Origin: Sinomicrobium kalidii
GTDB taxonomy: Bacteria; Bacteroidota; Bacteroidia; Flavobacteriales; Flavobacteriaceae
Reading direction: 5' to 3'
Length of the DNA: 64,000 nucleotides
Assembly (NCBI RefSeq): GCF_021183825.1
Contig: NZ_CP089211.1
Coordinates: forward strand, 4,756,501 to 4,820,500
The notes beneath the pieces were generated by a model. The model was not told the origin of the DNA. It worked only from the letters and a program-made list of their open reading frames with translations, and did not search any database. Below, one piece after another: positions 15,649 through 45,786 of this stretch. Each line of letters begins with the position of its first letter. The stretch's first letter is position 1. A program made the position numbers and the translations under genes.

Positions 15649-16093
15649 CCGCAAGTCCTGCTTTTTTCTTCCAGTCCATAAAAAACTGCGGGATGACAAG
15701 TGAAAGATCGCCTTCTCCCATATTGTCCACAAACACCTGTACGGTTTCCCCGGTACATACCAGTCGTTCCTGCTGGTCGTAGATCTCGTAACGGAACACT
15801 ATTTTGGCGGCCGGGCTGTCTACATAAATTGTTTTTACGGTGGCAATATCTCCGTAGCGCAGCGGAAGTTTGTGGTCTGTACCCGATTTGACTATCGGGG
15901 TAGCGTAGCCGTGTTTTTTCTGGTCCAGATAGGAGATGCCGTGATGCCTGCCAAAGGCTTCGCGTCCGTCTTCAAAATATTGAATATAGTTCCCGTGCCA
16001 TACAATACCTAACGGATCGGTTTCCACAAAACGAACCCTGATCTGTGTGGTATGGGATAGCTCTTTTGTTTTATACTGCGTTTTTCTTTTCAT
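15641..16093 (-). CDS. Acyl-CoA/ACP thioesterase, 4HBT hotdog family
   Basis: This 150-residue protein has the hotdog thioesterase signature RFVETDPLGIVWHGNYIQYF, with the catalytic Asp in the D-P-L-G-I-V-H/W-N-Y motif as in 4-hydroxybenzoyl-CoA thioesterase and YbgC. It would release an acyl chain from CoA or ACP. Thioesterases of this family are standard in aryl polyene clusters. It overlaps the ABC permease by 23 bases and the following KAS by 8. Confidence 0.85.
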   Translation of the reverse strand: MKRKTQYKTKELSHTTQIRVRFVETDPLGIVWHGNYIQYFEDGREAFGRHHGISYLDQKKHGYATPIVKSGTDHKLPLRYGDIATVKTIYVDSPAAKIVFRYEIYDQQERLVCTGETVQVFVDNMGEGDLSLVIPQFFMDWKKKAGLADD

Positions 16094-17336
16094 TATAAAT
16101 TACTGCGGTTACGGTAGTTATGGCAAAAAAGAGGAACAGCAAAGCAATTTCCGGCAGGATGTCCGAAAAAGACGCGTTCCGCAAAAATACATCGTAAAAG
16201 GCATTGAGTCCCCAGTTCATCGGTGAAATATGCGACAGGGCCTGCATAATCTCCGGCATGATGAATACGGGTACCCATACTCCGCCCAGGGCGGCAAGGA
16301 TCACGACGAGGGTGGCACCGAAAGGGGCCGATTGTTCCTGTGTGCGGGCAATAGTGCCCAGCAGAAGCCCCAGGCCTATGGCCGCAAGTCCTGCAAAAAA
16401 GATAACAACGAGGAGTAACGGCAAACGGCCGGAAACATCGAGCCGGGAAAGCCCGAGGCGGGGGAACAGGTATATGCCAACCAGCAGCATCAGTGAAAAC
16501 TGGATCAGGCATACCGCGAGGTATGTTATGGTTTTCCCGCCCAGCACGGTAGCATAAGACACGGGCTGGATACGTAGCCGGACAAAAGTTCCCTGCCCTT
16601 TTTCCTTTACAATGTTTATGGACAGGGGAACAATAATAAAAAATATGGCGAATAATGACCATGCGGGCACATTGTGTTGTACCGAATTGGGAATGTATTT
16701 CCGGCCTTCATTTCCGGGGAGTATTTCCCGGAAGGTGATAAAACTTTCGGTATCAAACAGTTTTTCGCCCGGGTCGTCACTGAGTTGTTGCTGAAAGGTC
16801 CTGTAAATGGCCGCGGTTTCTATGCGGGAGATCATTTTGTCTATCCCGTTCTTTATGTTGCCTTTAAAGGATTGTTGTACGGCGGGATCAAAATAGAGTT
16901 TTACTTCCCTCGGAGAAATGTTATTTGACGGTATACTGTCATTTTCGGCAAAGCCCATTCGGGCCATAATACCGTTTACATTCCGGTTGACCCTTTCTTC
17001 CAGGCCCGAGGTAAGTTGTTCCGGAATGATGACAGCGAGCTGGTAGTCGCCACTGAAAACCAGTGACCTGGCGGTCTCTTCAGAATTTTTATAGACGATT
17101 TCAAATGCGCCCGAGGTTTTGAGCCCTTTGAGAATGTCTTCCGAAACATGTCCGCTGTCTTTGTTGACCACCAATACCGGAATACTGGTATCGCTAACGG
17201 TTTTGAAAGTGCTGTCCTGTATCAGTGTTATGGTGACAAGAAGCACCAATGGCATGATGAACAATATGGCAATACCGCCGGGATCGCGGATGAGTAAAAG
17301 AAACTCCTTGTATGTCGATGCGATTAATTTATGCAT
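16071..17336 (-). CDS. ABC-2 type transporter permease
   Basis: This 421-residue protein has one N-terminal membrane helix (GGIAILFIMPLVLLVTI), a long extracytoplasmic domain (about residues 50 to 230) and five more helices at the C-terminal end. That is the YhgE/DrrB-like ABC-2 layout, with the family motif near MNWGLNAFYDVFLR. It overlaps the ATPase gene by 8 bases and forms an exporter with it. The likely cargo is pigment or its lipid precursor, judged by location only. Confidence 0.85.
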   Translation of the reverse strand: MHKLIASTYKEFLLLIRDPGGIAILFIMPLVLLVTITLIQDSTFKTVSDTSIPVLVVNKDSGHVSEDILKGLKTSGAFEIVYKNSEETARSLVFSGDYQLAVIIPEQLTSGLEERVNRNVNGIMARMGFAENDSIPSNNISPREVKLYFDPAVQQSFKGNIKNGIDKMISRIETAAIYRTFQQQLSDDPGEKLFDTESFITFREILPGNEGRKYIPNSVQHNVPAWSLFAIFFIIVPLSINIVKEKGQGTFVRLRIQPVSYATVLGGKTITYLAVCLIQFSLMLLVGIYLFPRLGLSRLDVSGRLPLLLVVIFFAGLAAIGLGLLLGTIARTQEQSAPFGATLVVILAALGGVWVPVFIMPEIMQALSHISPMNWGLNAFYDVFLRNASFSDILPEIALLFLFFAITTVTAVIYNEKKNAV

Positions 17337-18072
17337 GGTCCCTCAGTGCTTTTCCGGTTAAACTCAGGAAAACTTCTTCCAGGTTATGTGCCCCTTCGCA
17401 GTTTTTTATAAGCTCGCGGGGTTTTCCTTTACTGATGATCCTGCCGTGGTCTATAATGGCCACTTCCGAACACAACATTTCAGCTTCGTTCAGGTGATGG
17501 GAGGTGTAAATAATAGTGGTCCCTTTTTCGTTGAGTTCGTGCAAAAAACGGATAATGACGTTTTTGGATTGCACATCCACACCAACGGTGGGCTCATCCA
17601 GGAACAATACCTTCGGGCGGTGAAGAACCCCTGCTATCAGGTTGACCCGGCGTTTCATTCCGCCGGAAAAGGTTGCTATCTTTTTACAGGTAAAAGATGT
17701 CAGCCCCAGGTGTTCCAGGGCGGTATGTATTTTTTCGTCAAGTTCGCGGCCTTTCAGTCCGTACATGCTCCCGAAGTATCTCAGGTTTTCCACGGGAGTA
17801 AGGGAAGGGTAGAGGGCGTATTCCTGCGGTACAATACCTATCCGTTGTTTAAGCCGGTTTTTATGCTTGGTATAGTTAAGCCCGTCTATGGAAAATGACC
17901 CGGTAGTCGGTTTGATAAGGGCACACAAAATGGAGATCAGGGTGGTTTTCCCCGCGCCGTTCGGGCCGAGCAGGCCGAATATCTCCTTTTCGGCAATATC
18001 CAGGTTCAGATTGGTCAGTGAATACCGGTCTGCACCCTTATAGATTTTTGAAACGCGTTCTGTCCTTATCAT
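17329..18072 (-). CDS. ABC transporter ATP-binding protein
   Basis: This 247-residue ATPase has Walker A GPNGAGKTT (about residues 36 to 44), the signature ATFSGGMKRR, Walker B VLFLDEPTVGVD, and the H-loop His in TSHHL. It belongs to the DrrA-like drug/lipid exporter group. It overlaps the permease by 8 bases, and its start directly abuts the stop of the BtrH-like gene. Confidence 0.9.
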   Translation of the reverse strand: MIRTERVSKIYKGADRYSLTNLNLDIAEKEIFGLLGPNGAGKTTLISILCALIKPTTGSFSIDGLNYTKHKNRLKQRIGIVPQEYALYPSLTPVENLRYFGSMYGLKGRELDEKIHTALEHLGLTSFTCKKIATFSGGMKRRVNLIAGVLHRPKVLFLDEPTVGVDVQSKNVIIRFLHELNEKGTTIIYTSHHLNEAEMLCSEVAIIDHGRIISKGKPRELIKNCEGAHNLEEVFLSLTGKALRDHA

Positions 18073-31186: not shown

Positions 31187-32728
31187 ATGATAAAATATTT
31201 TATTCCTGTGCTATGTATGTGCTTGCCGGGTAGTTTTTTCGCACAACAGCACGATACTTTTGACAGTATTTATTATCGCCTTTATACGGAAAACCGGAAC
31301 CTGGACCGCGGACTGAAAACGGCCGATTCCCTTTACCGTACCTCGGACAACAATTCTCACAAGGTAAAATCCCTGATGTTACTGGCCGGGTTATACCGTC
31401 GCAAAAAAGATAAAAGAGCAATTACCTATCTTTTAAAGGGGGAACGCCTGGCTTCGGAAACCGGATTATATGAATGGCAGGCCAGGGCTTGCGGCGCATT
31501 GTCCAGTGAATACAGGGAAGCAGGTCTTCCCGATGCAGGGAAGCGTTATCTCGATAAAGGCATAAGGATCAGCCGGAAAATAAGCCCGGAAGAAGTATCT
31601 AATGAATACCAGGGGCTGCTATACCAGGAAAAAGCCTATTATTCGGTAACTAAAAAAGATTTCAGGGAAGCCGTACGAAACGACCGGGAAGCAGGTACCT
31701 TTTTTGCGTTGCTGAAGAACGATTTTAAAAGAAACCTGCACCTGGCCACCAATGAAAAGGCACTCGGAGAGAATTATCGGAAAATGCACATAAATGATTC
31801 CGCCGAGTATCATTACCGGAATGCCCTGGACCATATTGCGGCAACCCGGGGTGTCCCTATCCAGGAGGGAATGATATACCTTGGCCTGGGAAGGATTTCC
31901 CTGGAGAGAAAAAACTATGCTGCCGCTTGCGAACGTTTGAACAGGGCCCTGGATTTTGCCTTGGCTTCCGGGCTGGTGTCGTTACAGGGGGATGTGTATG
32001 AAGCTTTGTCGGGATATTACATGGCAATGGGGGATATGAAAAATTATACGCTGTACAACAGGAAGTACCTGGAAGTCATGAAAGAGGAAATGAAGGCCAG
32101 TAAAAACTCCTATAACCTTGCAATAAACCAGGCTTATCGGGATTATGAAGAAAGCAGCATGTTTCATTATGTTATAATAGCGTGTGTAACACTCGTGTTG
32201 GCCATAACGGTTATGTTTATCCTTCTTTCGCGTAAAAAGCAAAAAGTAAAGCACAATCAAACTGGAAAAGCAGGGGAGGAAACAAGAGCAGATAAGGCGC
32301 GTTCCCCGTCTTCTCCTGCGGGGCGTAAAAAAGAACATGTCAGGGAAGCAGATCTTATGCCGGAAAAAACAGAAAAATTGTTGCTTGAAAAATTGTCCCG
32401 TTTCGAAACATCCGGGAAATTCACTGACCGGAATATTTCTTCTTCTGCACTTGCTGCGAAGATTGGTACCAATATCAAATACCTGTCCTATATCATCAAT
32501 AAGTACAAGGGGAAGGATTTTAATTCTTACATCAATGAGTTGCGCATACGGTACATCATTAAAAAAATGGAAGAAAACCCGGACTACCTGAACTATAAGA
32601 TAAGTTATATGGCCAAGGAATGCGGTTTTTCTTCCCACAGTAAATTCAGTACCGTATTCCGGAACATTACCGGACAGTCTCCTTCCGCATTCATGAGTAT
32701 GGTGAAAAAAAAGAAGATGGCAGGGTAA
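31187..32728 (+). CDS. TPR-containing AraC-family transcriptional regulator
   Basis: This 513-residue protein has a signal peptide (ending FFAQ), a periplasmic region of TPR-like helices (about residues 45 to 310), one membrane helix (about 327 to 347) and a cytoplasmic AraC-type double helix-turn-helix at the C-terminus (about 395 to 505, with AKECGFSSHSKFSTVFR). This layout is common in Bacteroidota: the outside part senses a signal and the inside part binds DNA. The target is unknown. It could control the nearby pigment genes or another locus. Confidence 0.85.
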   Translation: MIKYFIPVLCMCLPGSFFAQQHDTFDSIYYRLYTENRNLDRGLKTADSLYRTSDNNSHKVKSLMLLAGLYRRKKDKRAITYLLKGERLASETGLYEWQARACGALSSEYREAGLPDAGKRYLDKGIRISRKISPEEVSNEYQGLLYQEKAYYSVTKKDFREAVRNDREAGTFFALLKNDFKRNLHLATNEKALGENYRKMHINDSAEYHYRNALDHIAATRGVPIQEGMIYLGLGRISLERKNYAAACERLNRALDFALASGLVSLQGDVYEALSGYYMAMGDMKNYTLYNRKYLEVMKEEMKASKNSYNLAINQAYRDYEESSMFHYVIIACVTLVLAITVMFILLSRKKQKVKHNQTGKAGEETRADKARSPSSPAGRKKEHVREADLMPEKTEKLLLEKLSRFETSGKFTDRNISSSALAAKIGTNIKYLSYIINKYKGKDFNSYINELRIRYIIKKMEENPDYLNYKISYMAKECGFSSHSKFSTVFRNITGQSPSAFMSMVKKKKMAG

Positions 32729-36122: not shown

Positions 36123-36266
36123 AAGACCCGGGTATGGGAGAATAGAATTAAAGACCTACTACAGGGGGACCGGAATCCAAAATCCGTACTCCTGAGATCT
36201 GTGGAACGAAAAAGGGGAAGCCGAAAACCTTTAACAGAGTAGGTATAACTTTAAATATCTCTTATC

Positions 36267-36440
36267 ATGAAAAAATCTTTAAAAAACTTGCAACTGAAAA
36301 AAGAGGTTGTAAGTAACCTGAGCGCAAAAGGAGTTAAAGGTGGAGCCGTTACCGACGGTACGATCTGCCAGGACACTATGTACTGCCCCACTAACGGGCC
36401 GTTAAATACATGCCCCCCTCCTGGAATGCAATGTTATTAA
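36267..36440 (+). CDS. Class I lanthipeptide precursor (LanA-like), 57 residues
   Basis: The leader has the Bacteroidota lanthipeptide pattern L-x-L-x-K-x-x-V-x-x-L (LQLKKEVVSNL, residues 8 to 18) and ends in a Gly-Gly at residues 25 to 26. The core of about 31 residues has five Thr (29, 32, 37, 42, 48) and four Cys (34, 40, 49, 56), enough for up to four lanthionine-type rings. The end is Pro- and Gly-rich. A terminator follows, then a LanC cyclase gene. The peptide would need Thr dehydration by a LanB-type enzyme, which is not in the window. It is too short to be seen by many gene finders. Confidence 0.8.
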   Translation: MKKSLKNLQLKKEVVSNLSAKGVKGGAVTDGTICQDTMYCPTNGPLNTCPPPGMQCY

Positions 36441-36456
36441 AAAAATGAACCTGTAG

Positions 36457-36505
36457 ACACGGGCTGTGCACTTTCTAAAAAGGTGTTTACAGCCTGTGTT
36501 TTTTG
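36457..36505 (+). terminator. Terminator between the precursor and the LanC gene
   Basis: An 11-bp stem (36457 to 36467 with 36489 to 36499, one G-T pair) is followed by six T. It may let the peptide be made in excess over the enzyme. Confidence 0.7.
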
Positions 36506-36540
36506 TTTAATATAGTTACTGATCCACCCCTGAGAACTGT

Positions 36541-36548
36541 TATCTTTG
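36541..36548 (+). promoter_or_regulatory. -7 box of the LanC gene
   Basis: TATCTTTG matches TAnnTTTG. It ends eight bases before the ATG, so the transcript would have an almost absent leader. No clear -33 box is seen. Confidence 0.4.
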
Positions 36549-36555
36549 AACTGCC

Positions 36556-37773
36556 ATGAACATACAGGAAGCCTCTTTATTCAAAAAACTGGAAGAAATA
36601 AGTAAGGTACTGGAAAAGGAATATCCCGGGACCGAAGATGTAGGGGTGTTGTCCGGTATATCTGGAATGGCCCTTTTCGCATTTTATTATTCCCGGTTTA
36701 CGGGTAAAGAACGGTATGCCGACTTAGGATCGGAAATATTGTCGCTGGTCTTCGAAAGGATCAATAACGGCTACACGATGCATACTTTCTGTGCGGGTAT
36801 ACCCGGAGCGCTGTGGAGTATGGAACTATTGCGGGAAGAAGGGTTCATAGACATAGACCACGATACCCTTCTCCGGGATTTCGACGACTTTCTTTCCGGT
36901 AGTATAAAACGCTATAAAGACATCAATTTTTACGACTTTTTACACGGCGTACTGGGCATAGGCTATTATTTTCTGAAACGCTACCGGAACACGGGGTCCG
37001 AAACGCTAAAAAAACGTTACAGGGAAGAGTTGTCCGGGATAATCAAGTTGCTCGGTGACCGGGCAGAAAGAGAAGGGGAAACCTGTAAATGGGAATCTTT
37101 TCTGATACGCGATGAAGGGCTAAAAGGCTATAACCTGAGCTTATCCCACGGAATGTCCGGTATAGTCAGTTTTTTATCGCGATTACTTGTTCACCCCGAT
37201 TTTTATACGGAAGTAAGGCCTGTTCTGGAAGGTGCTGTCGGTTATATTGTGCAGTGGGAAAACACGGCTGCGGGTTCGTCCGTTTTCCCGGGCTGGATTA
37301 CATCGGCAGGAGAAAAGAGTGAAAAAGTGAGGTTAGGCTGGTGCTATGGCGATCTCGGGACCGCACTCTCCCTCTGGCACGCCGGAAGTGCACTGAAGGA
37401 CGATGTATTGTGTGAAAAGGCAGTGCAGGTGTTGAAACATACCACGAAGCGAAGGGATACGGAAGAAGCCGGGGTAAAGGATGCCGGGCTGTGTCACGGG
37501 ATATTTGGCATCATGCACATATATCGTTACATGTACAGGCAGACCGGAGAAAAGGAATTTGCCGAAGCTGCCCGGTTCTGGCAGGAAAAAGGATTGTCAG
37601 CAGACATCCATGAAAAAGGATATGCGGGCTATATGCAATGGCGCGGAGGCGACATATCGGGATGGCGGGCAGAGGCCAACCTTCTGGAAGGCGTGGCTGG
37701 TATAGGCCTGGCCATTATGGCGGAATTGTCGCCCGACTATACCAAATGGAACGAATGTCTGTTGATAGGCTGA
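36556..37773 (+). CDS. LanC-like lanthionine synthetase (cyclase)
   Basis: This 405-residue protein has the LanC alpha-barrel repeats and all three zinc ligands: Cys263 in LGWCYGD, and Cys313-His314 in GLCHGIFG. The LSHGMSG and CAGIPGALW repeats fit the NisC fold. LanC adds Cys thiols to dehydrated Ser/Thr to make lanthionine rings. The precursor gene is 115 bases upstream. No dehydratase (LanB) or transporter is in the window, so these would act from another locus. The gene is convergent with the next one, 6 bases apart. Confidence 0.88.
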   Translation: MNIQEASLFKKLEEISKVLEKEYPGTEDVGVLSGISGMALFAFYYSRFTGKERYADLGSEILSLVFERINNGYTMHTFCAGIPGALWSMELLREEGFIDIDHDTLLRDFDDFLSGSIKRYKDINFYDFLHGVLGIGYYFLKRYRNTGSETLKKRYREELSGIIKLLGDRAEREGETCKWESFLIRDEGLKGYNLSLSHGMSGIVSFLSRLLVHPDFYTEVRPVLEGAVGYIVQWENTAAGSSVFPGWITSAGEKSEKVRLGWCYGDLGTALSLWHAGSALKDDVLCEKAVQVLKHTTKRRDTEEAGVKDAGLCHGIFGIMHIYRYMYRQTGEKEFAEAARFWQEKGLSADIHEKGYAGYMQWRGGDISGWRAEANLLEGVAGIGLAIMAELSPDYTKWNECLLIG

Positions 37774-37779
37774 TACCGG

Positions 37780-38871
37780 TTAATGCAAATCGATCATGTG
37801 CGTGGCCGAGCTATCGGGCATTGACCATTTTCCTTTCAGGTGAAATGAAGAAACCGGTTTCAGGCGAAAAATACCGGCGGTAGTGCGGTGATTTTTGCCC
37901 ATTTCCCGGAACTCATAAGATCCGTCCTGATGTTTTAAGGCCTGCAAATCAATTTTCCTGGCCGGGTTGTCATAAAAACAAAATGCCCTTACCAGACCAT
38001 CATCATAAATTTTTTCTACAAAAAGGTGTATTGCGTGTTGTTCGTCTATTTTTCCCTGGTATAGTCCTATGTGCATGTTCTTTTCCTCTTTTTTTGTGTT
38101 GTATTCCGAAGAGGCCGTCAGCAGGTATTGGCCGTAATTGTTCAGAAAGGGCTTTAACCGGGAAAGGTCAAATTCATTTTCAAAATCCCCGGGGTCATCA
38201 TACGCAGCACCGGTATGGGAAGCACAGCGTCTGCGTATTATTTTCAGGGAGCTGTTGGTGAGCAGCAATTCGTCATATTTCAGCTTGTCGTTTTTTATGG
38301 AGGACAGACAATCGCTATAGATGGTGTATTGTTCCGCAGCAACCCGGTTTGTGGTATCCAGGGATGCGAGGAAACGGTCTATCCGGTCGGTTCTTTGTTT
38401 TATCACCAGTTGTTGTAATTCCTGAAGCCCTTTTCGGGTAAACAAATCTTCCAGGTTTATCGGCTGCCCGCTCTTTGCGTCAAAATTCTGAATTATGGAG
38501 AAGGAGGAAAGAGATGTTCCGGAATACTTTCCGATAATATCCATAGAAATATACCTTGTATTGTTGGCATAGACCAGGTAGTTCAGCATAGTTACTCCCT
38601 GTGGCGAACCTTTTCGGGGCCATATACGTTCAAAAGGGGACCGGTTGAATTTCCCGGGCAGGGTTTCCAGGATGGTACCGTGAAGCCAGGTATTGATCCT
38701 TCGGGCGGCATCGGTACGATCAGTGATAAGCGGAAAGCTGAAATATTCCTTGTTAACGGGGTGTATACCCTGAAGGGAACTGACAGAAAAATGCTGGGCA
38801 TTGCCAAAATTATGCCAGGCGAGGACAAGGCATATAATAAAAAATGAAAAGCGAGTAGTTTTTTTCATCAT
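37780..38871 (-). CDS. Secreted protein with DUF3298-like region
   Basis: This 363-residue protein has a signal peptide (ending GNAQ). Around residues 128 to 146, IIQNFDAKSGQPINLEDLF is the typical strand-turn of DUF3298/RsiV-type proteins (NFD-x-K-T-G-x-x-I-x-L-x-D-L-F). The rest is unassigned. A -7 box TATATTTG on the minus strand (39031 to 39024) may start its transcript about 150 bases upstream. It is convergent with the LanC gene. Confidence 0.6.
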   Translation of the reverse strand: MMKKTTRFSFFIICLVLAWHNFGNAQHFSVSSLQGIHPVNKEYFSFPLITDRTDAARRINTWLHGTILETLPGKFNRSPFERIWPRKGSPQGVTMLNYLVYANNTRYISMDIIGKYSGTSLSSFSIIQNFDAKSGQPINLEDLFTRKGLQELQQLVIKQRTDRIDRFLASLDTTNRVAAEQYTIYSDCLSSIKNDKLKYDELLLTNSSLKIIRRRCASHTGAAYDDPGDFENEFDLSRLKPFLNNYGQYLLTASSEYNTKKEEKNMHIGLYQGKIDEQHAIHLFVEKIYDDGLVRAFCFYDNPARKIDLQALKHQDGSYEFREMGKNHRTTAGIFRLKPVSSFHLKGKWSMPDSSATHMIDLH

Positions 38872-43009: not shown

Positions 43010-44401
43010 ATGAAACTACAAATTACGTTGTTAATGATGTGCTTATTTTTCATCTCCTGTAAAAATGACAGGGAAACAGATGGAGAGAGCGCTGCCGACA
43101 CGTACACGGTGCCGGTGGAATATTACAAGCTGGATAACGGTCTTAAAGTCATTCTTTCGGAGGATAAGACCGCACCGACGGCTATTGTCGCGGTTTATTA
43201 TAATATCGGATTCAGAATAGAACCGAAAAACAGGACGGGTTTTGCACATTTGTTTGAACACATGATGTTCCAGGGATCTGAAAACCTGGGCAAAATGGAG
43301 TTTATCAATCTGGTGCAAAAGAACGGAGGTGTCCTGAATGGCTCTACCCGTTTCGACTTTACCAATTATTTTGAAATAGTCCCTTCCCATAAGCTGGAAA
43401 CCATGCTGTGGGCGGAAGCAGACCGGATGAAGGGGCTGGACATTACCCAGGAAAACCTGACCAATCAACAGGGTGTGGTCAAAAACGAAGTCAGGGTCAA
43501 TGTGCTCAACCAGCCTTACGGAGGATTTCCCTGGCTGGACATGCCGCAATATGCCAATACCAACTGGTATAATTCCCATAACTTTTACGGGGACCTCGAG
43601 GATCTGGATGCAGCAAACCTCGAAGATGTGGAATCCTTTTTTAATACCTATTATTCACCGAACAATGCCGCCCTCGCTGTGATAGGTGATTTTGACAGGG
43701 AAGAGGTGCGGGGATGGATACAAAAATATTTTGGCAGTATCCCGTCGGCTTCGCTTCCGGAAAAACCGGATATTTCAGAACCCTTGCAGACAGAAGAAAA
43801 ACGCTTTGTCAAAAACGATTCCCTGGCCAATAAACCCGCTATTGCAATAGCCTACAAGATGCCCGAACGCAACACTCCCGAATATTTTGCCATGGGGTTG
43901 CTGGACCAGATACTGGCACAGGGCGATAATGCATTGCTCCGGCAAAAACTGGTAAGTGAAAAAGGATATACTTCCGGTATCAGCGGAGGGATTAATTTTC
44001 TGGGCAATATGTTCAACTATAACGGTCCCATGTTGTGGATGTTCAATTTTACCTATGACAACGGAAAGACGGAAGCGGAGATCGTAGGTGCCGTAGACGA
44101 AGTGATGGACAGTTTAAAGCTGACCATTGACCAGAAGGCACTGGACGGAGCCGTGGTAAAGATGAGGTCTGACCTGTATGATGAACTCGGAGGAACATTT
44201 GGCATGGGAAGGGCCGATCTGTTGTGCAGCTTTGCCCTGTTCGATGACGATCCCGGAAGGATCAATACACTGGAAGAGGAGTTCAGGAAAATAACGCCGG
44301 AGGTCATTCACAAGACCATTGACGATTATCTGCGACCTACCAACAGGACCATACTCAGGGTTAATCCCTTATTAGCTAACGACAAAAATTCCGCGCAATG
44401 A
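43010..44401 (+). CDS. M16 zinc peptidase, catalytic subunit, lipoprotein
   Basis: This 463-residue protein has a lipobox (FISC) and the inverted zinc motif HLFEHMMF (H-x-x-E-H) near residue 80, with the downstream Glu of the family at about residue 155. It is the active half of a PqqL-like M16 pair with the next gene, which overlaps by 4 bases. It probably degrades peptides in the envelope. Confidence 0.88.
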   Translation: MKLQITLLMMCLFFISCKNDRETDGESAADTYTVPVEYYKLDNGLKVILSEDKTAPTAIVAVYYNIGFRIEPKNRTGFAHLFEHMMFQGSENLGKMEFINLVQKNGGVLNGSTRFDFTNYFEIVPSHKLETMLWAEADRMKGLDITQENLTNQQGVVKNEVRVNVLNQPYGGFPWLDMPQYANTNWYNSHNFYGDLEDLDAANLEDVESFFNTYYSPNNAALAVIGDFDREEVRGWIQKYFGSIPSASLPEKPDISEPLQTEEKRFVKNDSLANKPAIAIAYKMPERNTPEYFAMGLLDQILAQGDNALLRQKLVSEKGYTSGISGGINFLGNMFNYNGPMLWMFNFTYDNGKTEAEIVGAVDEVMDSLKLTIDQKALDGAVVKMRSDLYDELGGTFGMGRADLLCSFALFDDDPGRINTLEEEFRKITPEVIHKTIDDYLRPTNRTILRVNPLLANDKNSAQ

Positions 44402-45786
44402 AAAAATACGTTTTAAACTTCATACTACTGGCTTTTATATTGCCCCTGACCGCCCAGGAAAAGGAGCCGCCGCCGAAAGGGGGAGAACCGAAAGACTTTA
44501 AATTACCGGAAAAGCAGGTAGTTTCCCTGGATAATGGCCTGGAACTGGTTATGGTGCCTTACGGGGCCATTCCGAAGGCTACCATCAGTATTACGGTTAA
44601 AACAGGGAACATCCACGAAAAGGAAAATGAAGTATGGCTTTGTGACCTGCTGGGTGATCTGATGGAAGAAGGCAGTGAATCAAAGGATGCCAGGACCATT
44701 TCCAACGAGATGGCCGCTATGGGGGGCAACCTGAATATTTCGGTGGGGAGCCATACTACAAACCTGAACACTGACGTACTTTCCGAATTTGCCCCGCAAG
44801 CCATAAAAACAATGGCAGATGTATTATTGCATCCCAAATGGCCGGAATCGGAGCTGGAACGTCTCAAAAACGACATGAAGCGCAATCTGAGTGTTAGTTT
44901 GTCACGTCCGCAGTCACAAGCCAGGAAAGATTTTTACGCGGCCATATACCCCGATCATTCCTATGGAAGGATATACCCTACAGACACCTTGATCGATACT
45001 TATACTACGGAGGATATAAAACGGTTTTACAGTACAAATTTCGGGGCAAAACGTACCGTGGTGTATGTAGTAGGGAAATTTGATACGGCTTCGGCAGAAG
45101 AGGCCGTAAAAGAGGCTTTTTCGTCCTGGACCGGGGGACCGGAAGTTTCTTATCCGGAGGCTACCCCGAAAACACAACATATGGTGAATATCATAGATCG
45201 TCCGGGGGCGCCGCAATCCACTATTATGTACGGATTGCCTGTCATATCGCCTGAAGATCCGGATTATATTGCGCTCGATATTACCAATTCCCTCCTCGGA
45301 GGTTCTTTCGGATCGAGGATCACCAGTAATATCCGGGAAGACAAAGGGTATACCTATTCGCCGCGCAGCAGTCTTCAGAGCAATTATAAGACGGGTGTCT
45401 GGTTTGAAGCCGCTGATGTGACTTCAGAATTTACAGGCGCTTCGATAAAGGAGATCAAAAAGGAAATTACCAGGTTGCAGGAAGAAGCACCTGCCGGAGA
45501 AGAACTGGAGGGAATAAAAAACTACGAATCGGGACTGTTTGTACTGAGAAATTCCACTCCCGGGGGAATTATCGGACAATTAAATTTCCTGGACCTGCAC
45601 GAGCTGCCGGAATCCTGGCTTGAGGATAAGGTGAAAAATATGTATGAGGTAACACCCGAGCAGGTCAGTGAAATGGTAAAAAAATATATTAAACCCGGAG
45701 AAATGACCCTTATTGTTGTAGGAGATAAAGCGAAAATCAAAGATCAGGTCTATGAAACGCTGGATAAGGATGTCATTAAAGAGTGA
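44398..45786 (+). CDS. M16 peptidase family, non-catalytic subunit
   Basis: This 462-residue protein has a signal peptide (ending LTAQ) and an M16 fold but no H-x-x-E-H. At the matching place it reads LLGDLMEEG. The C-terminal RE-x-x-GYTYSPRS motif with the Arg-Tyr pair that binds substrate is present (NIREDKGYTYSPRS). It is the partner of the catalytic subunit. A bidirectional terminator follows. Confidence 0.87.
   Translation: MKKYVLNFILLAFILPLTAQEKEPPPKGGEPKDFKLPEKQVVSLDNGLELVMVPYGAIPKATISITVKTGNIHEKENEVWLCDLLGDLMEEGSESKDARTISNEMAAMGGNLNISVGSHTTNLNTDVLSEFAPQAIKTMADVLLHPKWPESELERLKNDMKRNLSVSLSRPQSQARKDFYAAIYPDHSYGRIYPTDTLIDTYTTEDIKRFYSTNFGAKRTVVYVVGKFDTASAEEAVKEAFSSWTGGPEVSYPEATPKTQHMVNIIDRPGAPQSTIMYGLPVISPEDPDYIALDITNSLLGGSFGSRITSNIREDKGYTYSPRSSLQSNYKTGVWFEAADVTSEFTGASIKEIKKEITRLQEEAPAGEELEGIKNYESGLFVLRNSTPGGIIGQLNFLDLHELPESWLEDKVKNMYEVTPEQVSEMVKKYIKPGEMTLIVVGDKAKIKDQVYETLDKDVIKE

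Follow-up and report, generated by a model that had tools for sequence, protein, structure and literature searches.

A 64,000-nucleotide stretch of the Sinomicrobium kalidii genome (here, the window; contig NZ_CP089211.1, positions 4,756,501 to 4,820,500) carries a two-gene module on its forward strand, consisting of a gene for a 57-residue class I-type lanthipeptide precursor (window positions 36267 to 36440) and a gene for a 405-residue LanC cyclase (36556 to 37773). The window holds no LanB gene, so the dehydratase expected in the same locus as a class I precursor is missing here. Comparison with the rest of the genome and with relatives makes it likely that the module is a detached class I precursor with a LanC of its own and that dehydration and export are provided in trans, most likely from a gene cluster at 3.06 Mb.

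The precursor peptide and its cyclase

The precursor, recognized by motif and homology, has the leader MKKSLKNLQLKKEVVSNLSAKGVKGG and a core that ends in TNGPLNTCPPPGMQCY; Thr occupies positions 29, 32, 37, 42, and 48, and Cys occupies positions 34, 40, 49, and 56. Coordinates, sequence, leader pattern, Gly-Gly end, and the five Thr and four Cys residues of the core are all as given in the original prediction, which was made from the DNA sequence of the window. A leader of this type joined to a core with Thr/Ser and Cys is characteristic of class I lanthipeptides, with the NCBIfam profile lant_leader_L1a giving a score of 13.4, under its cutoff of 22. The pinensin leader profile does not match the window peptide, which thus lies outside the pinensin leader family. 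Nine protein homologues were found, the closest being 82% identical. Among the 10 Sinomicrobium sequence pairs, dS was measurable in five (0.9 to 2.0, with dN of 0.05 to 0.15), while in the remaining five the synonymous sites are saturated and dN is 0.10 to 0.22. The original prediction had allowed that the frame might not be translated; the homologues and the low dN support it, and by these comparisons the 57-residue frame is evidently genuine.

The LanC assignment likewise held up (PF05147, E value of 9e-47), including the zinc ligands Cys263, Cys313, and His314 that a class I cyclase should possess. Sequence matches in the PDB are 8byk, 3t33, NisC (2g02), and 6wq1. The three ligands are kept in 34/34 aligned relatives, as are all seven residues checked at the zinc site and the presumed active site, whose roles we take to be those known from NisC. 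In a tree of 34 LanCs (without the duplicate loci L105, L106, L107, and L117 and without L109, whose LanC is split), a branch with 100/99 support separates 20 LanCs adjacent to precursors of this family, with or without an adjacent LanB, from 14 LanCs of LanB clusters; with midpoint rooting, this separation counts as a split rather than an established clade. The LanC of the window clusters with those of the other two Sinomicrobium modules (support, 100/100). Both kinds of LanC occur near one LanB in L108, L111, L112, and L113. At L109 (10920-12148), the module LanC is broken into two overlapping frames.

Distinct peptides with an MKK start, the leader pattern, and either PPPG or CPPRG were collected as a family (n = 44). 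The pattern [TS]xxCxTxxxxN[TS]CPP[PR]GxxC, with three Thr/Ser and three Cys at fixed places, is kept in 40 of the 44, the four misses being Dokdonia side copies; since the search pattern itself dictates part of the peptide end, the weight rests on the upstream Thr/Ser and Cys residues. In an alignment built from homology searches, 18/18 members have Thr/Ser and Cys at these positions. The rings in the precursor would presumably be T37-C40, T42-C49, and T48-C56.

Module loci and LanB genes in the genome and in relatives

The S. kalidii genome is a single contig of 5.36 Mb. A whole-genome search placed LanB genes at only two loci, in clusters at 3.06 Mb (the LanB itself at 3.07 Mb) and 0.34 Mb. 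The former lies 1.72 Mb from the module, and the latter lies 0.91 Mb away if the contig is circular; a LanB gene just outside the window, which would have refuted the original prediction, was not found. The 3.06 Mb locus is a complete class I cluster with a C39-peptidase ABC transporter, HlyD, six precursors, LanC, LanB, and Lant_dehydr_C, the dehydratase being a split pair (PF04738, 747 amino acids [aa], and PF14028, 313 aa). Its six precursors have the same leader type as the module precursor, so that the genome does pair a LanB with precursors of a matching leader type. The 0.34 Mb locus (L008:4646-12705) is a pinensin-like cluster whose LanC is 645 aa long, and the precursor there, which the pinensin leader profile matches, has a leader of a family other than that of the module.

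A scan of named genomes with the LanC query confirmed no relative; the precursor alignment as query yielded 22 named loci. Together with the window and L073, these gave 24 loci for comparison, of which 14 have a LanB within 10 kb, 7 have precursor and LanC only (the window, L105, L106, L110, L117, L121, and L122), and 3, from two genomes, have a precursor with neither (L119, L123, and L124). In Aquimarina and Dokdonia, the module adjoins a LanB of the 3.06 Mb type. The precursor-LanC pair that the original prediction proposed to seek in relatives therefore exists there, either beside this type of LanB or without one. Among six members of Sinomicrobium, three have the module, each with LanB elsewhere in the genome; one has LanB without the module, and two have neither. 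In two other genomes, G353 (L088-L099) and G179, precursor-like matches that carry the leader type of the module are scattered genome-wide (16 scored in each, of 140 and 146 first-look candidates, respectively), with one LanB match each; a prochlorosin-like class I system is possible in both.

The lack of a LanB and a transporter in the module would also fit a decaying remnant that has lost its own LanB and whose peptide has ceased to be produced or modified, and broken genes do occur in relatives (the module LanC of L109 in two frames and a regulator with a stop in G177/L107). We consider such decay quite unlikely, however, because the peptide is under purifying selection, the seven LanC residues are kept throughout, S. 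oceani has three precursor copies, and the same genes flank the module in three species. The latter are a CobW gene, which lies upstream of the module together with an Fe/Mn superoxide dismutase gene, and a gene for a 363-aa protein with no Pfam or NCBIfam match (37780 to 38871, reverse strand), which is convergent with LanC. The CobW gene and the 363-aa gene border the module in each of the three module-bearing Sinomicrobium species, and the 363-aa gene is absent from the other three members of the genus.

Co-occurrence was assessed in 397 genomes of the taxonomic family, counting precursor alignment matches at an E value of 0.01 or better. Matches were found in 17 genomes, 7 of which have the PPPG family. 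LanB is present in 7/7 of the latter versus 36/397 overall (3e-8, or 2e-5 by genus). In the 10 other matching genomes, where mainly the leader matched, LanB is present in 9; G381, the one without LanB, has a frame with stops. All 19 genomes reached via the named loci, which overlap with the 397-genome sample, have LanB as well. No genome tested that has a family precursor was without LanB. This bears on a further possibility, that LanC works without dehydroamino acids or that a non-LanB enzyme dehydrates the peptide. LanC-like proteins without LanB partners have been reported from Bacteroidales, but those are without the zinc motif (PMC10352776), whereas the ligands are complete in the LanC studied here and Thr/Ser and Cys are conserved together in the peptides. 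Given LanB in every family-holding genome tested (LanB being the dehydratase type covered by the search), we regard this possibility as very improbable. Another source of dehydrated residues, also raised in the original prediction, gained no support, although class II, III, and V dehydratases were not searched for.

The other arrangement that had been raised, a split locus with LanB acting in trans, is supported by the distant cluster, which combines a LanB and a C39 transporter with precursors of the same leader type, by the adjacency in relatives, and by LanB co-occurrence. Under this arrangement, the split dehydratase pair of the 3.06 Mb cluster would dehydrate Thr37, Thr42, Thr48, and perhaps other residues in trans; the local LanC would then close a methyllanthionine ring onto each of Cys40, Cys49, and Cys56, and the ABC transporter with the C39 peptidase, also from the 3.06 Mb cluster, would cleave after Gly-Gly (a predicted cut after Gly26) and export the product. 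The module and its conservation, the LanB clusters elsewhere, the adjacency in relatives, and the co-occurrence with LanB are seen in the sequences; the acting LanB, the ring topology, the export route, and the function are inferred.

The upstream RNA element, the regulator, and other neighbors

A DUF805b cis-regulatory RNA (Rfam RF02914) lies upstream of the precursor start codon on the same strand (36211 to 36245). The cmscan score of 51.8 bits exceeds the gathering score of 35.6 (E value of 6.1e-14), which assigns the element to this Rfam family. A regular expression for DUF805b has a match at most 130 bp upstream of 29/37 family precursors and of 0/289 control genes (from the same loci and coding for 150 aa or more), the expression itself having been drawn from such sites. 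L119, L123, and L124 are among the loci without a match. Across the loop, a further helix (GCC with GGC or GGU) forms pairs at 105/105 positions in 35 distinct elements, some of which are upstream of other precursors. None of 2,000 shuffles reached 105 (mean, 95.9; maximum, 100). For two of the three pairs, the collecting expression had already required a pyrimidine to face a purine, a constraint that the shuffles keep, but they do not keep relatedness. The real pseudoknot signal is the GUC/GAC and GCU/AGC variants. No stable nested structure was predicted in 131 bases of the 5' region (fold z score of 0.47). A search of three Sinomicrobium genomes, with 150 candidates scored per genome, gave 13 DUF805b matches, 5 of them above threshold in addition to that of the window; several precede small secreted proteins, including one clear DUF6520. 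The motif reportedly originates from a 2017 survey. In the literature covered here, which lies largely outside subscription journals, no work on DUF805 as an RNA motif was found, and the titles that mention DUF805 look unrelated.

The gap that separates the precursor gene from the LanC gene holds a hairpin with a T run after it (36455 to 36501, forward strand), likely a partial terminator or attenuator; the RNA of positions 36441 to 36520 folds at -29 kcal/mol (z score of -4.95).

A gene for a TPR-AraC (HTH_18) regulator that is predicted to span the membrane once (31187 to 32728, forward strand) is located 3.5 kb upstream, and its membership in the module is uncertain. The protein is a distant relative of the regulator found upstream of the precursor family in Aquimarina and Dokdonia. 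Outside Sinomicrobium, a relative of the window's TPR-AraC protein precedes the precursor in the same orientation at 17/18 LanC-bearing loci (L073, L107-L118, L120-L122, and L126), within 0.80 kb at 16 loci and at 2.2 kb in L107; the 18th locus (L125) begins 0.6 kb upstream. The domains were checked in L108, L113, L117, L118, and L121, and hydropathy predicts one internal membrane span in 7/7 proteins. As the seven genomes tested have 0 to 17 relatives each, adjacency to the precursor by chance is unlikely. Further copies are found nearby in L111, L113, L114, L115, L116, and L120. These associations raise the doubtful idea that the module serves peptide signaling, in which a lanthipeptide made in trans under DUF805b control would be exported and sensed by the membrane TPR-AraC protein, such modules being mobile signal units that use a host dehydratase. 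In the window and in S. pectinilyticum, the relative about 3.5 kb upstream is a distant one, and in S. oceani none was found within 10 kb of the module, so that the signaling idea is weakest in the window itself. A search of the same literature for LanC together with AraC and tetratricopeptide gave only PMC10352776.

The original prediction that the window has no dehydratase, protease, or ABC transporter for the precursor holds for LanB and needs two qualifications for the other two. The window also holds an M16 peptidase gene pair on the same strand (43010 to 44401 and 44398 to 45786), starting 5.2 kb past LanC, and, about 18 kb upstream of the module, a transporter of the ABC-2 type (16071 to 18072) that lacks a C39 domain; no evidence from this analysis ties either to the module. 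With the proteins of the 3.06 Mb cluster as tblastn queries, the window gave matches only to the ATPase of the ABC-2 transporter and to LanC. Elsewhere, a 956-aa M16 relative lies about 2 kb from isolated precursors (L101:4113-6983 and L102:11087-13957).

Probable dehydration in trans and its relation to known systems

Several points weigh against this explanation of the module. M16B peptidases are known lanthipeptide proteases (PMC8960859), and with an M16 pair 5.2 kb downstream, leader removal need not depend on C39. The drafts L110 and L122 have a contig end about 3 to 6 kb from the module, so that a LanB could be nearer than it appears; in the other draft loci, the module is at least 15 kb from contig ends. 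Collection by PPPG or CPPRG makes conservation around that end partly selected, shared ancestry inflates the co-occurrence counts, and genomes counted as lacking the precursor may include misses, because at most 16 candidates per genome were scored. Finally, cmscan gave no DUF805b match ahead of any of the six precursors in the 3.06 Mb cluster, and neither a looser expression nor visual inspection of 100 bases each revealed one, but a match of 24.4 bits, below threshold, lies directly upstream of the pinensin-like precursor (L008:12727-12762), and the module may thus be coregulated with the pinensin-like cluster.

The last point also favors the pinensin-like dehydratase at 0.34 Mb as the enzyme that serves the module: the DUF805b-like element there is placed as at the module, this LanB is the nearer one on a circular map, and all three module-bearing Sinomicrobium genomes carry a second, low-scoring LanB of the pinensin kind. 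We nevertheless judge this assignment unlikely, because the leader of the pinensin-like precursor belongs to another family and because the LanB that the module adjoins in Aquimarina and Dokdonia is of the other type.

The presumed chemistry of the module is known, and its genetic arrangement is unusual. Class I lanthipeptides of Bacteroidetes have an LxLxKx5L leader, a Gly-Gly end, and a C39 protease (Walker et al. 2020, PMC7268733); the module shares with them the leader motif, the Gly-Gly end, LanC, and a C39 transporter in the genome, but it forms a conserved unit at a great distance from LanB and transporter, and its LanC belongs to a separate group. As with the prochlorosins and ProcM (PMC10783134), precursor genes can sit away from the modifying enzyme; unlike that system, which employs a class II LanM, the module is of class I, with the cyclase beside the precursor and the dehydratase shared. 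Pinensin-type clusters (PMC10112250), one of which is reported from a Sinomicrobium strain, likewise have a split dehydratase and occur in Bacteroidota; the leader family and core of the module differ, and the pinensin-like locus is separate in the genome. Lanthipeptides with unclustered proteases (PMC8960859) also have one biosynthetic step encoded off-cluster, but what they miss is the protease, whereas the module misses dehydratase and transporter. A search by title of the literature described above, aimed at in-trans LanB and remote precursors, found no report of a class I split-locus lanthipeptide.

The one-contig genome of S. kalidii provides an example in which a class I dehydratase apparently serves more than one locus while the cyclase is dedicated, and the link to the precursor gives both the Rfam DUF805b RNA and the membrane TPR-AraC proteins a candidate role. 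Search rules that require a LanB next to LanC, as in lanthipeptide search tools, would pass over modules of this kind, so that the lanthipeptides of Flavobacteriaceae may be undercounted.
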